Origin: an uncultured Rhodospirillales bacterium
GTDB lineage: Bacteria; Pseudomonadota; Alphaproteobacteria; ATCC43930; CGMCC-115725
Direction: 5' to 3'
Length of the DNA stretch: 64,000 nt
Assembly: GCA_903828515.1 (NCBI GenBank)
Contig: CAIKMD010000007.1
Coordinates: 1,768,706 to 1,832,705, forward strand
Shown here in pieces: positions 6,876 through 11,231 of the stretch; position 1 is the first letter of the stretch, and every line of letters begins with the position of its first letter. Made by a program: the position numbers and the translations under genes. The notes under the pieces are model-generated. The model saw only the letters and a program-made list of their open reading frames with translations. It ran no database searches and was not told the DNA's origin.

Positions 6876-7097
6876 ATGCAACGTTGGTTAGTCGGCGAAG
6901 CCAGCCTCGAAGAATTGATCGGGGACGACATGATGGGCCCCGTTGTGGCGAGCGCGGGCATGAACCGCGAGGAATTCCGCCTAAGTTTCGCCGAGACCGC
7001 GCGGCGGCTCTGTCCCCGCGCCGGCGAGAGCCGGTCCGGCAAGAGCGGGAATGTGCGGTGCAGCGAGCAGCCGCGTCGCTTCGCGGCCGGGTTCTGA
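6876..7097 (+). CDS. Small hypothetical protein, 73 residues
   Basis: A strong Shine-Dalgarno site (GGGAGGG, 6861-6867) lies eight bases before the ATG. The first 45 residues (MQRWLVGEASLEELIGDD, then VASAGMNREEFRLSFAETARRL) are acidic and amphipathic, looking like a small helical protein. The tail is basic and low-complexity. The 3' half overlaps the end of the histidine kinase gene on the other strand (6981-7097), where the kinase itself has left its conserved domain. I do not recognise a named family. The good ribosome site and protein-like N-terminus favour a real gene. Confidence 0.5.
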   Translation: MQRWLVGEASLEELIGDDMMGPVVASAGMNREEFRLSFAETARRLCPRAGESRSGKSGNVRCSEQPRRFAAGF

Positions 7098-8504
7098 ACG
7101 GCCGGATTCGACCGCTAAAGGAATTTGCAGCACGGCTTTGAGGCCGGGATTGACCGCGCCCGGATGGCTCTCTTCGAGCCATACCGTGCCGTCGTGAAGC
7201 TGCGACACCGCACGGACAAGACTGAGACCCAAACCGTTTCCGGGGGTGCTCCGGCTCCCCTCCAGCCGGACGAACCGGTCGAACACCGCCTCGCGCCGTT
7301 CGACCGGCACGCCGGGGCCGGAATCGGCCACTTCGACGCGGGCGTTGGGCCCGATCGCGTGCGCGACCAGCGCGACGCCGCCCTCGGGTGTGTACTTCAA
7401 GGCGTTGTCGAGCAGGTTGGCGATCGCCTGCGATAACAGGTGTCGATCGCCGCGGACCTTGAGCGTGGCCGCGATATCGCTGGTCAGCACAAGACCCTTT
7501 TCCTCGGCGACGGGATCGTAAAGCTCGGCCACGTCAGTGGCGATTTCGGCGAGATCGACGACGCCCCAACTGTCACGTCGCGAACCCGCTTCGGCCTCGG
7601 CGATACTGAGGAGTGCGTTGAACGTGCCGAGCAGCCGGTCCGCCTCGCTGATCGTATCGCGCAGCGCCTCGGCATAGCGTTGCTCGTCGGGCTTCTCGAT
7701 GAGCGTTACCTCGAGCCGGGCACGCAGGCGTGCCAGCGGCGTGCGCAGATCGTGGGCGATGTTGTCGGTGACCTGTTTCATGCCCGCCATCAGCTGCTCG
7801 ATCTGGTCGAGCATGGCGTTGAGATTTTCCGCGAGCTGATCGAACTCGTCGCCGCTGCCCGACAGCGGCACGCGCTGGGACATGTCGCCGTGGATGATGC
7901 GGGTGCTGGTTCGGTTCACCGCGTCGACCTTGCGGAGCATGTTGCGGGTCATCAGCAGGCCGCCGGCAATGCCGAGACCCAGGGTGATGAGCGCCGCCCA
8001 ACCGAGCGTATGCGTGATCCGGCCTCGGAAAAGATCGGCGTCGCGCATATCGCGCCCGACCAGAAGATGGAAATTGCCCGGCAGCACGATCACCGAGGCG
8101 CGCGCGGCGAGGGTCTCTGTCACGCTGCCGCGGTGTTCCTCGACCGGAAAGCGAACCCAGCCATTGCCGCTTTCGTGCACCTGCGGCCATTGCTGAAGAT
8201 TGCCGGCGAGCGGATGGAGCAGGGGATCAGTGATCAGATAAAGCGTGCTGTCGAACCGTCCAGGGGTGCGTTCCTCGGCGGTGACGCGTTCGTGGATGAC
8301 GTCGACCAGGCCCGCGAGCCCGTGCTCCTGATATTGCTCGGCGAGGCCGCGGATTTCGGCGTCGATCGTTTCGTCGGTCTGCAGGTCGATGAAATCGGCG
8401 GTCGACAGATAGATGAACGCCAGGAGCGCCAGCACCGAGGTCGCGAACAGCGAAAAATAGACGGCGGCGAGACGAAAGGCGTTGGTGTTGAAAAACCGCG
8501 TCAT
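6981..8504 (-). CDS. Sensor histidine kinase (HAMP-HisKA-HATPase)
   Basis: A 507-residue inner-membrane kinase. Transmembrane segment one is at about 11-36, a periplasmic sensor region follows to about 164, transmembrane segment two is at about 165-185, and HAMP spans about 187-240. The phosphoacceptor is His251 in NIAHDLRTPLARLR. The ATPase domain has N-box NLLDNALKYTPEGG, G1 DSGPGVP and G2 GNGLGLSLVRAV. A nonconserved tail of about 35 residues follows the last conserved strand. It lies three bases after the response regulator gene, reading the same way, so it is the cognate kinase. The stimulus is unknown; the layout is that of the QseC/PhoQ-like class. Confidence 0.9.
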   Translation of the reverse strand: MTRFFNTNAFRLAAVYFSLFATSVLALLAFIYLSTADFIDLQTDETIDAEIRGLAEQYQEHGLAGLVDVIHERVTAEERTPGRFDSTLYLITDPLLHPLAGNLQQWPQVHESGNGWVRFPVEEHRGSVTETLAARASVIVLPGNFHLLVGRDMRDADLFRGRITHTLGWAALITLGLGIAGGLLMTRNMLRKVDAVNRTSTRIIHGDMSQRVPLSGSGDEFDQLAENLNAMLDQIEQLMAGMKQVTDNIAHDLRTPLARLRARLEVTLIEKPDEQRYAEALRDTISEADRLLGTFNALLSIAEAEAGSRRDSWGVVDLAEIATDVAELYDPVAEEKGLVLTSDIAATLKVRGDRHLLSQAIANLLDNALKYTPEGGVALVAHAIGPNARVEVADSGPGVPVERREAVFDRFVRLEGSRSTPGNGLGLSLVRAVSQLHDGTVWLEESHPGAVNPGLKAVLQIPLAVESGRSEPGREATRLLAAPHIPALAGPALAGAGTEPPRGLGET

Positions 8505-8507
8505 CGC

Positions 8508-9182
8508 TCAGTCGGTCGCGAGGCGATAGCCGGCGCCGCGCACGGTGTGGAGGAGCGGCTTCTCGAAGCCCTTGTCGATCTTTTGGCGCAGCCGGCTGAT
8601 ATGGACGTCGATCACGTTGGTCTGGGGATCGAAATGATAGTCCCAGACATTTTCCAGCAGCATCGTGCGAGTGACGACCTGTCCGGCATGACGCATCAGG
8701 AATTCGAGCAGGCGAAATTCGCGCGGCAGCAACTCGATCGTCTGGCTGCCGCGGCGGATGTTGCGCGCGAGCAGATCCATCTCGAGATCGCCGACCTGGA
8801 GTTTGGTCGATACCGCCGTGCCGCTGCCCCGACGCAACAGCGCCTCGATCCGCGCCAGCAATTCGGCGAAGGCAAACGGCTTGACCAGATAGTCGTCGCC
8901 GCCGGCGCGCAGGCCCTTGACCCGGTCGTCGACCGCGCCGAGCGCGGAAAGGATCAGGACCGGGGTGTGGATTTCGGCAGTGCGCAGCGCGGCAATGACC
9001 GTGAGGCCGTCCATGCCCGGCAGCATCCGGTCGACGATCAGTCCGTCGTAAGTGCCGGAGCTGGCGAGAAACAGGCCCTCGCGACCCTCATTCGCCGCAT
9101 CGACGACATAGCCGCTCTCGGTCAGGCCTTTCACGATATAGGCCGAGGCCTCGCGATCGTCCTCGATGACCAGCAGCTTCAT
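8508..9182 (-). CDS. OmpR-family response regulator
   Basis: A 224-residue two-domain regulator. The receiver has the acidic pair EDD (7-9), phosphoacceptor Asp51 (LIVDRMLPG), Ser79 as the switch residue and Lys101 (YLVKPF). The C-terminal winged helix carries LLPREFRLLEFLMRHAGQVVTRTMLLENVW and the recognition region TNVIDVHISRLRQKID. It is co-transcribed with the kinase downstream. A 26-codon membrane-peptide gene lies 82 bases upstream on the same strand and may share its transcript. Confidence 0.93.
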   Translation of the reverse strand: MKLLVIEDDREASAYIVKGLTESGYVVDAANEGREGLFLASSGTYDGLIVDRMLPGMDGLTVIAALRTAEIHTPVLILSALGAVDDRVKGLRAGGDDYLVKPFAFAELLARIEALLRRGSGTAVSTKLQVGDLEMDLLARNIRRGSQTIELLPREFRLLEFLMRHAGQVVTRTMLLENVWDYHFDPQTNVIDVHISRLRQKIDKGFEKPLLHTVRGAGYRLATD

Positions 9183-9230
9183 GGCCGCAGACCTTAGCCC
9201 CGACGGGCGGCTGCGCCAATCTCGCTTACA

Positions 9231-9248
9231 CCGCGCGAAACGGCGCGG
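9231..9248 (-). promoter_or_regulatory. Hairpin between the small membrane ORF and the response regulator
   Basis: CCGCGC at 9231-9236 pairs perfectly with GCGCGG at 9243-9248 around a six-base loop. No T-tract follows on the minus strand, so this is not a canonical terminator. It could limit read-through from the small ORF into the two-component genes or simply reflect high GC. Confidence 0.25.
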
Positions 9249-9264
9249 CGCCTGGGATCGCCGA

Positions 9265-9345
9265 TCAGCTCAGCGTCGTGACGATGGCGACGAGCCATCC
9301 GAAAGCCAGCACTGCGGCGACTTGGCGATCGATAATCCGGTCCAT
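9265..9345 (-). CDS. 26-residue single-pass membrane peptide under a putative SOS promoter
   Basis: The frame reads MDRIIDRQVAAVLAFGWLV, then AIVTTLS and TGA. A charged N-terminus (D2, R3, D6, R7) precedes one continuous hydrophobic segment of about 16-18 residues. GAGGGAG at 9353-9359 gives a strong ribosome site seven bases upstream. A -35 TTGTTC (9397-9402) and a -10 TAGAAA (9374-9379) spaced 17 bases sit just ahead, and a GTTC-N7-GTTC LexA-type box (9386-9400) overlaps the -35. Caulobacter SidA is an SOS-induced inner-membrane division inhibitor of similar size; homology cannot be judged at this length, so the analogy rests on size, topology and control. It is 82 bases upstream of the response regulator. 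Confidence 0.5.
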   Translation of the reverse strand: MDRIIDRQVAAVLAFGWLVAIVTTLS

Positions 9346-9373
9346 GTCCGTGCTCCCTCAATGTCAGGAGCAT

Positions 9374-9402
9374 TTTCTAGCATTAGAACAAAACAAGAAC
9401 AA
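9374..9402 (-). promoter_or_regulatory. Putative SOS-controlled sigma70 promoter with LexA box
   Basis: Reading left, TTGTTC (9397-9402), 17 bases, TAGAAA (9374-9379). The two GAAC half sites on the plus strand (9386-9389 and 9397-9400) are separated by exactly seven bases, which is GTTC-N7-GTTC on the minus strand, the known alphaproteobacterial LexA site. The box covers the -35 and part of the spacer, the usual place for a repressor. Confidence 0.5.
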
Positions 9403-9413
9403 GAAGTTTTTCG

Positions 9414-9431
9414 ATGCCCCAAAAATGGCAT
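9414..9431. promoter_or_regulatory. Inverted repeat upstream of dps
   Basis: ATGCC (9414-9418) and GGCAT (9427-9431) form a dyad with an eight-base A-rich spacer, upstream of the dps promoter and just right of the LexA-like box. It could bind a regulator of dps. No family consensus is clearly met. Confidence 0.25.
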
Positions 9432-9457
9432 AAACGGTGGGGTAAAATGGCTTGAGC

Positions 9458-9487
9458 TTGCTGGTTTGCCGACGCCACGCATATTTT
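9458..9487 (+). promoter_or_regulatory. Candidate dps promoter
   Basis: TTGCTG (9458-9463), an 18-base spacer and TATTTT (9482-9487) precede the AAGGAGAGAG ribosome site (9500-9509) and the dps ATG at 9512. This would give a short leader of roughly 18 bases. Confidence 0.35.
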
Positions 9488-9511
9488 AGAACGACTCAAA
9501 AGGAGAGAGCC

Positions 9512-10000
9512 ATGGCCTTACACAAAACCCAGAACGATCTGAAGTCGAACACCAAAACCACGGTGATCGCGCTGCTCAATGCGCGCCTTGCCGAGGGGAT
9601 CGATTTGGCGCTCCTGACCAAGCAGGCGCATTGGAACGTGAAGGGCCCGCAATTCATCGCGGTGCATGAAATGATCGACGGTTTCCGGACCGAAATCGAC
9701 GGCCATGTCGACACCATGGCGGAGCGGATCGTTCAACTCGGTGGGACCGCGATGGGCACGACGCAGGCCGTCGCGAAGGCGACGACGCTCGCCGCGTATC
9801 CGACCGACATCTATCAGACGAAGGATCATCTTCACGCCCTGATCGAGCGCTACGGCAAGACCGCCAATGCGGCGCGTGCCGCGATCGAAGAAGCCGACGA
9901 GGCGGGCGATAAGGACACGGCCGATATCCTGACCGCCTATTCACGCGCGCTCGACAAGGCGCTGTGGTTCCTCGAAGCGCACGTCCAGGAACCGGCGTAA
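9512..10000 (+). CDS. dps: Dps family DNA-protecting ferritin
   Basis: A 162-residue Dps/miniferritin. The inter-subunit ferroxidase residues are visible in KQAHWNVKGPQF (His) and in EIDGHVDTMAERI (Asp and Glu), the standard Dps signatures. The lysine-bearing N-terminal extension (HKTQNDLKSNTKTT) could bind DNA. The start at 9512 is set by AAGGAGAG at 9500-9507; an upstream in-frame start near 9452 would add an unlikely leader. Dps dodecamers oxidise ferrous iron with peroxide and shield DNA in stress. It is a single gene, convergent with the acyl-CoA dehydrogenase seven bases away. Confidence 0.93.
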   Translation: MALHKTQNDLKSNTKTTVIALLNARLAEGIDLALLTKQAHWNVKGPQFIAVHEMIDGFRTEIDGHVDTMAERIVQLGGTAMGTTQAVAKATTLAAYPTDIYQTKDHLHALIERYGKTANAARAAIEEADEAGDKDTADILTAYSRALDKALWFLEAHVQEPA

Positions 10001-10007
10001 CGGGACC

Positions 10008-11231
10008 CTAGAGCCCGCGCGCTTTCTGCATCGCCCGCACTTCGGCGCGGGCGATCGAGCGCAGATGGACTTCGTCGGGGCCGTCGACGATCTGCAGATA
10101 GCGGCCGTGCGTCCAGATGTCGGGCAGGGGTGTGTCCTGGGTCAGGCCCTTGGCGCCGAAGACCTGCATCGCGCGGTTGGCGATCGCGACCTCGATCCGC
10201 GGCACGATCACCTTGATCAGTGAGACTTCACGTCGCGCCGCCTTGGTGCCGTGCCGGTCGATCAGCCAGGCGGTCTTCAACACCAGCAGGCGTGCCTGCT
10301 CGATCTCGATCCGCGAAAGTGCGATCCATTCGCGGATCGTGCCGTGCTCGTGCAGCGCCTGACCGAAGGTGCGGCGCTCGAGCGAGCGTTCGATCATCAA
10401 TTCCAGGGCCAGTTCGGCGCAGCCGATCGCGCGCATGCAGTGATGGATGCGGCCGGGACCAAGCCGCGCTTGCGCCAAGGCAAACCCACCGCCTTCCTCG
10501 CCCAGCAGACTGTCGAGCGGCACGCGGACTTTATCGAACAACACCTCGCAATGCCCGTTCGGGTGAACCTGATGCATCACCGGTGGATTGCGCAGGACCC
10601 TGAGGCCGGGTGAATCGGCGGGGACGAGGATCATGCTCTGGCGGCGATGGGCCTCGCTTCGGTCGGGACTGGTCTGGCCCATGACGATGAAGAGCTTGGT
10701 GCGCGGATCGGCGGCGTTGGTGATGAACCATTTGCGGCCTTCGATCACCCACTCATTGCCTTCGCGTTTGATCGAGGTGCGGATGTTGGTCGCGTCCGAC
10801 GATGCGACGTCGGGCTCGGTCATCGCGAAGGACGAGCGGATCTTTCCGTCGAGCAACGGCTTCAGCCAGCGCTCTTTCTGTGCCGGCGTTGCGGCGAGGT
10901 GGAGCAACTCCATGTTGCCGGTGTCGGGTGCGCTGCAGTTGAAGACCTCGGACGCCCAATCGATCCGTCCCATGATCTCGGCGCAGGGCGCATAGTCGAG
11001 ATTGGAGAGCGCGGTACCCGGCTCGTCGGGCTTGAGGCCAGGCAGGAACAGATTCCACAGGCCTTCGGTGCGCGCTTTGGCTTTAAGGTCTTCGAGGAAC
11101 GGCGGCGGGAACACGCCTTCGTGTTCGACGACTCGTTCGTAGTCGGTCTGACGCGGCGCGACATGCTCGGCGATGAATTGCCGCACCGCCGTCTGCATGT
11201 GCCGCGATTTCTCGGAGAATTCGAAATCCAT
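10008..11231 (-). CDS. Acyl-CoA dehydrogenase (ACAD10/11-like)
   Basis: A 407-residue FAD acyl-CoA dehydrogenase. It carries SFAMTEPDVASSDATN and WFITNAADPRTKLFIVMG (FAD and substrate contacts), RRTFGQALHEHGTIREWIA, and the C-terminal IVDGPDEVHLRSIAR. In that position the ACAD10/11 group uses an aspartate near GPDEVH as likely catalytic base instead of the usual glutamate. The ATG at 11231 gives the family-like start MDFEFSEKSR; a TTG at 11249 adds six residues. It probably oxidises long or branched acyl-CoA, transferring electrons to ETF. It is a lone gene between dps and a beta-helix protein. Confidence 0.88.
   Translation of the reverse strand: MDFEFSEKSRHMQTAVRQFIAEHVAPRQTDYERVVEHEGVFPPPFLEDLKAKARTEGLWNLFLPGLKPDEPGTALSNLDYAPCAEIMGRIDWASEVFNCSAPDTGNMELLHLAATPAQKERWLKPLLDGKIRSSFAMTEPDVASSDATNIRTSIKREGNEWVIEGRKWFITNAADPRTKLFIVMGQTSPDRSEAHRRQSMILVPADSPGLRVLRNPPVMHQVHPNGHCEVLFDKVRVPLDSLLGEEGGGFALAQARLGPGRIHHCMRAIGCAELALELMIERSLERRTFGQALHEHGTIREWIALSRIEIEQARLLVLKTAWLIDRHGTKAARREVSLIKVIVPRIEVAIANRAMQVFGAKGLTQDTPLPDIWTHGRYLQIVDGPDEVHLRSIARAEVRAMQKARGL

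Follow-up and report, generated by a model that had tools for sequence, protein, structure and literature searches.

A 26-residue peptide that is predicted to cross the membrane once appears to be made under SOS control from a very short gene in the 64,000-nucleotide stretch of DNA analysed here (the window). This is what the initial annotation had proposed, and the sequence gives good support for SOS control of a translated membrane peptide, because the LexA-type box and the frame are kept together in relatives, the frame evolves under selection at the protein level, and the same promoter stands before a recN gene and Y-family polymerase genes elsewhere. We put at roughly one half the probability that LexA controls this single-pass peptide and that it binds a membrane partner, likeliest the septal wall synthase, and acts in the manner of SidA. 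The locus occupies only about 140 bp; its putative operator is clean, one helix face is a candidate for contact, and its phylogenetic range is defined. Genes this tiny are usually overlooked by gene finders.

When the sequence was re-read, the coordinates and the description given by the initial annotation proved right: the 26-codon frame, its ribosome site, the -35/-10 pair at 17-nt spacing and the GTTC-N7-GTTC lying over the -35 were all located (Table 1). The frame translates to MDRIIDRQVAAVLAFGWLVAIVTTLS (26 aa), a peptide with a predicted hydrophobic segment (Kyte-Doolittle 2.26 over 16 residues), no charged residue beyond R7 and a C-terminus that coincides with the membrane edge. Purine-rich stretches precede the start codon in the promoter sequences of the homologues as well. 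Both TTGTTC and TAGAAA are off consensus, and a generic sigma-70 scan of the window, which returned nothing, did not score the promoter.

Table 1 Features at the peptide locus, in window positions
Feature	Position	Strand	Remarks
26-codon frame with stop	9265..9345	minus	ATG to TGA; predicted single-pass membrane peptide
Ribosome-binding site (putative), GAGGGAG	9353..9359	minus	read from sequence
-10 hexamer TAGAAA	9374..9379	minus	extended -10, TG at 9381-9382; read from sequence
LexA operator (putative), GTTCTTGTTTTGTTC	9386..9400	minus	GTTC-N7-GTTC; 40 nt before start codon
-35 hexamer TTGTTC	9397..9402	minus	overlaps operator; 17 nt to -10
OmpR-type response regulator	8508..9182	minus	82 nt after peptide stop, same direction
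Sensor histidine kinase (HAMP, HisKA, HATPase)	6981..8504	minus	adjoins regulator; candidate alternative target

Searching with the peptide alone produced matches in 14 of the 39 genomes of the family at E <= 1, and in 9 of the 21 more complete ones. All of the 12 best matches (E <= 0.16) carry a box 32-44 nt ahead of the start codon, a count that does not stand for 12 independent events since the homologues share one ancestor. The two weakest matches (L021 and L022; E 0.41 and 0.64) show no box and no motif and were discarded as chance. Joint conservation of box and frame in close relatives, one of the checks that the initial annotation had named, is thus seen in 12 of the 14 raw matches. The AT-rich kind of box occurs in 11 of the 12 retained homologues; the exception, in genome G032, has the box GTTCGCTGAACGTTC and seemingly a different promoter. 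Across the 12 promoters the -10 core reads TGCTA in seven and CGCTA in one, with neither form in four.

Wider searches point to a narrow distribution. A profile search recovered the peptide in nine of 26 genomes of the order that are at least 90% complete, all of them in its own family, and in 387 genomes sampled from the class, with at most 20 candidates scored per genome, it returned three family members and one partial match, which was taken as chance (L030, E 0.0087, covering positions 3-20 inside a 310-aa open frame). When box, start and frame were combined into one pattern and a collection of 84,980 species was scanned with it, 17 contigs matched, ten from family members (filed under the names 'Rhodospirillales bacterium' or 'Alphaproteobacteria bacterium') and seven from unrelated organisms; the pattern overlooks one retained member (G032, at L014/L026). 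The seven unrelated matches, in Gaetbulibacter, Pseudoscardovia, Pseudalkalibacillus, two Allomuricauda and two Nostoc, have no motif-bearing frame and were rejected. One match of the pattern in a viral contig (L201) likewise has no motif-bearing frame and was taken as chance, and as far as the viral contigs go a virus origin was rejected. Among the genomes searched, the known range of the frame is therefore six genera of one alphaproteobacterial family. In five further genera of that family neither the peptide search nor the profile search found the frame, which indicates that it is not needed for the SOS response there.

The bare box is too common to serve as evidence by itself: the window has eight copies of GTTC-N7-GTTC where shuffles average 2.39 (one of 100 shuffles reached eight), and the genome has 133 where the reversed pattern has 92. 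Its AT-rich form GTTCNNNNWWTGTTC, in which the end of the spacer is AT-rich, is specific, with 15 sites against 3 for the reversed pattern in this genome and, in six frame-less relatives, 62 against 7. We scanned both sides of these 77 AT-rich boxes, the 15 of the own genome and the 62 of the six profile-negative relatives, for a frame of 18-50 residues with a ribosome-like site and a hydrophobic segment, and only one box has such a neighbour, namely the frame in the window. This background scan reads only rough gene starts and can therefore miss frames; behind the 62 boxes of the frame-less relatives it found no substitute membrane frame.

Judged by the company it keeps, the box in the window is a LexA operator. 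Neighbours were identified for four of the 15 AT-rich sites in the own genome, and they are the window frame, recA (L059, an NCBIfam RecA match above cut-off), imuA (L005, E 1e-23, below the curated cut-off) and dnaE2 (L055, a fragment whose best match is error-prone DNA polymerase, below cut-off); the remaining 11 sites have no assigned neighbour, and some may be chance. A LexA DNA-binding domain is present in all 16 genomes searched, and GTTC-N7-GTTC lies 47-102 nt ahead of the lexA start in 14 of the 15 lexA loci examined, where starts were placed by a text filter that missed the start in the fifteenth and where weaker further LexA matches were left out. A variant of the AT-rich form, GTTCTAGTTTAGTTC, stands before the own lexA. 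The same motif is described for Caulobacter, with the box GTTCttgttatGTTC (PMC12700426), and the box of one relative (G037) is identical to it.

The promoter as a whole leads to the same reading. Six of the 387 genomes have a single copy of the pattern TTGTTC-N4-TTTGTTC-NN-ATGCTA, which lies before a window-type frame in three of them, before recN in one (L136, a fragment, E 1e-100, below cut-off) and before a Y-family polymerase gene in two, one with E 7e-57 to DNA polymerase IV, below cut-off (L137), and the other assigned by eye from its likeness to the first (L138). The recN and polymerase copies belong to other families. It is the genes it precedes elsewhere that mark this promoter-with-operator as an SOS promoter. 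Like members of a LexA regulon, the window gene has an operator that overlaps its promoter and that is conserved with the gene in relatives.

Three further boxes were noted beside the main analysis. A 437-residue frame (MQESSGSTRMVARGVEAPVLVFNPNEL...), possibly a further SOS gene, follows 35 nt behind the strong box GTTCCTATTTTGTTC (L049:1501-1515; G000:C6:220588-220602), and a frame of 229 residues that resembles, by eye, an endonuclease III type glycosylase follows 24 nt behind the box GTTCATGTTTTGTTC (L056:1501-1515; G000:C7:545950-545964). A peptide-less relative has a box 35 nt before a gene that by eye looks like single-strand binding protein (L144; G031:C23:31427-31441).

The frame is under selection at the protein level. 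In their last 21 codons the 12 homologues show a pS of 0.557 and a pN of 0.301 (ratio 0.54), whereas the other two reading frames give pN/pS ratios of 0.93 and 1.40; pS exceeds pN in 65 of the 66 pairs, which are not independent because of shared ancestry. Over 20 codons the values are 0.550 and 0.320, with pS above pN in 62 of 66 pairs. The alignment has no gaps within the last 21 residues, and the N-terminus varies in length, with 4 to 14 residues ahead of an invariant D. Five positions (D6, L13, W17, A20 and T24) are identical in all 12 homologues and G16 in 11; with a turn of 100 degrees per residue, all six fit within an arc of 100 degrees. The conservation moment over positions 6-26 has p = 0.014 against shuffles, with 100 degrees the best of the angles tried; over positions 9-26 and 9-25 it has p = 0.023 and 0.034, with 90 degrees best and 100 nearly as good. 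L25 is near-invariant but lies off the conserved face. Conservation on one face of a helix suggests a specific partner.

Directly downstream of the frame, in the same direction, lies a two-component system that the initial annotation had not mentioned and that provides a second candidate target. Its regulator and kinase come closest to the heavy-metal class, below the cut-offs of those models. A scan of the window found no terminator-like site between frame and regulator, and read-through from the peptide gene into the regulator is possible. In the 12 genomes the gap between frame and regulator is 78-123 nt in six, 584-748 nt in four and about 2 kb in one; the stretch fetched from the twelfth shows no regulator. 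In five of the 12, an oppositely oriented gene runs to within 50 nt of the frame's stop codon, so that the frame there seems to be its own unit. This convergent gene (at L013, L016, L031, L032 and L081, the last, from G032, overlapping the peptide gene by 14 nt) looks like a stand-alone receiver domain, a domain that a scan confirmed in L032 only. On the other side of the locus, 112 nt separate the LexA box from the start of a Dps gene (9512-10000, plus strand). The other genome of the genus has Dps at a distance of about 2.3 kb, which makes shared control doubtful, and Dps was dropped as a partner.

A related kinase (E <= 1e-20) is found in 38 of the 39 family genomes, 26 of which have no retained frame. 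The stretch before the regulator was available for 20 of the 27 frame-less genomes: it has no GTTC-N7-GTTC in 18 and one inside the regulator gene in two, with less than 500 bp of upstream sequence in G033, G008 and G024. That G033 shows no frame is explained by its contig, which breaks off about 45 bp short of the regulator gene. In a kinase tree of 28 rows, which covers 28 of the 39 genomes and leaves out G011, G012 and nine genomes without a fetched locus, all 11 frame-bearing rows fall in one group of 16 rows with 100/100 support. The tree requires at least four changes in the presence of the frame, which we read as one gain, losses in g8 and G017, and the contig end of G033.

No Pfam or NCBIfam model fits the peptide family, for which the searches returned weak matches only and no model named SidA. 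Two of the 12 members show a weak profile likeness to MmpA (NF046122, best E 0.01; the window peptide scores 15.9 against a curated cut-off of 32 bits) and one to the WLR motif membrane protein (NF053726, E 0.001), as is expected between hydrophobic helices; a literature search returned no paper combining 'MmpA' and 'morphogenic membrane protein'. SulA (PF03846) was found in none of 11 genomes searched, and of 14 control genomes only Escherichia coli was positive.

The closest parallel is SidA of Caulobacter crescentus, described as an inner-membrane protein of 29 residues that the SOS response induces and that interacts with FtsW (PMC4211646). Both are very short single-pass membrane proteins of alphaproteobacteria under LexA control (PMC4211646, PMC12700426), by prediction and through a putative operator in the case of the window peptide. 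The likeness drawn here is one of description, and we do not class the peptide as SidA; the profile of its family has no convincing match outside that family in the 387-genome sample, at the same depth of up to 20 candidates per genome. The Gram-positive division inhibitors YneA, SosA and ChiZ are likewise described as small SOS-induced membrane proteins; the membrane segment of YneA is stated to bind FtsW, and AlphaFold 3 models place SidA, SosA and ChiZ on FtsW, although their authors do not assign them high confidence (PMC13396833). YneA and ChiZ have a LysM domain, whereas the window peptide stops at the membrane edge, and the same source states that the membrane segment of YneA alone does not block division (PMC13396833).

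On this basis we propose that LexA, sitting on the operator over the -35, would keep the gene off. DNA damage would activate RecA, LexA would be cleaved, and the freed promoter would yield the 26-residue peptide, which we infer to insert into the membrane as one helix, with its N-terminus inside as the charged N-terminus suggests. The conserved face, including its G-x3-A motif, would then pack against a membrane partner. Our best guess for this partner, by analogy with the systems above, is the septal wall synthase FtsW/FtsI/FtsN, in which case division would be delayed until repair; the target, the effect on division and the role as a division checkpoint, which had been suggested in the initial annotation, are drawn by analogy from SidA. 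That SulA was found in none of the 11 genomes searched counts in favour of this reading. Against it count the five genera of the family in which the frame was not found, the inability of the YneA segment alone to block division, the position of L25 off the conserved face, the four promoters without either -10 core and the box of G032.

The two-component system offers a different partner. The peptide might act on the downstream sensor kinase, and SOS induction would then couple DNA damage to two-component signalling, much as the small membrane protein MgrB acts on the sensor kinase PhoQ. In favour of this unlikely reading are the same-direction position of the frame close upstream of the regulator in half of the 12 genomes and farther upstream in five more, the absence of a terminator-like site between them in the window and the single group that holds all frame-bearing kinases; the shared position may, however, be mere inheritance, the convergent gene directly behind the frame in five genomes means that co-expression is not required, and most family genomes have a related kinase without a retained frame. 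In its stronger form, in which the peptide docks by its one helix face on the neighbouring kinase and damage directly resets the system, with the whole system perhaps sharing the LexA promoter in the six genomes with the shortest gaps, we regard it as improbable. The same positional evidence would suit a leader frame whose translation only controls the regulator genes and whose peptide has no function. Yet the residues are more conserved than the DNA and the next gene is convergent in five of the 12 genomes, which makes a leader very unlikely.

It is also doubtful that the peptide acts on the membrane itself, lowering membrane potential and growth in the way of TisB or DinQ. TisB has charged or polar residues inside its helix. 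Such residues are not a feature of the helix in the alignment of the window family, and conservation of one face suggests a specific partner instead. In size, single helix and LexA control the peptide does match DinQ of Escherichia coli, described as a 27-aa inner-membrane peptide that depolarises when overexpressed (PMC3567139). DinQ, however, has charged residues in its helix (Glu17 and Arg20) and an antisense RNA (PMC3567139), whereas the helix of the window peptide is uncharged, with no charge after position 7. The antisense RNA was sought through Rfam only, over positions 8400-10400, where nothing significant was found for this or any other RNA element and one match (E 0.76) was taken as chance. 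That the box is accidental and stands beside a non-coding stretch that merely happens to be open would fit the high frequency of the bare box, but is highly improbable: box and frame occur together in 12 homologues from six genera with protein-level selection, and co-conservation, the single hit of the background scan and pN/pS already contradict it.

We return to the preferred reading, a LexA-controlled peptide that binds a membrane partner in the manner of SidA. Several lineages are described as having unrelated small proteins for their SOS-induced division inhibitors (PMC4211646), and a literature search found no LexA-controlled short membrane protein of these bacteria in the titles and abstract openings among the matches listed. 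We rate the peptide as a new and apparently unrelated addition to the SOS-induced tiny membrane proteins, and it probably helps cells to pause, most likely in division, during DNA repair. Should it act on the kinase, DNA damage and two-component signalling would be linked in a new way; should it block division, the view of the septal synthase as a common target of SOS responses (PMC13396833) would gain support.
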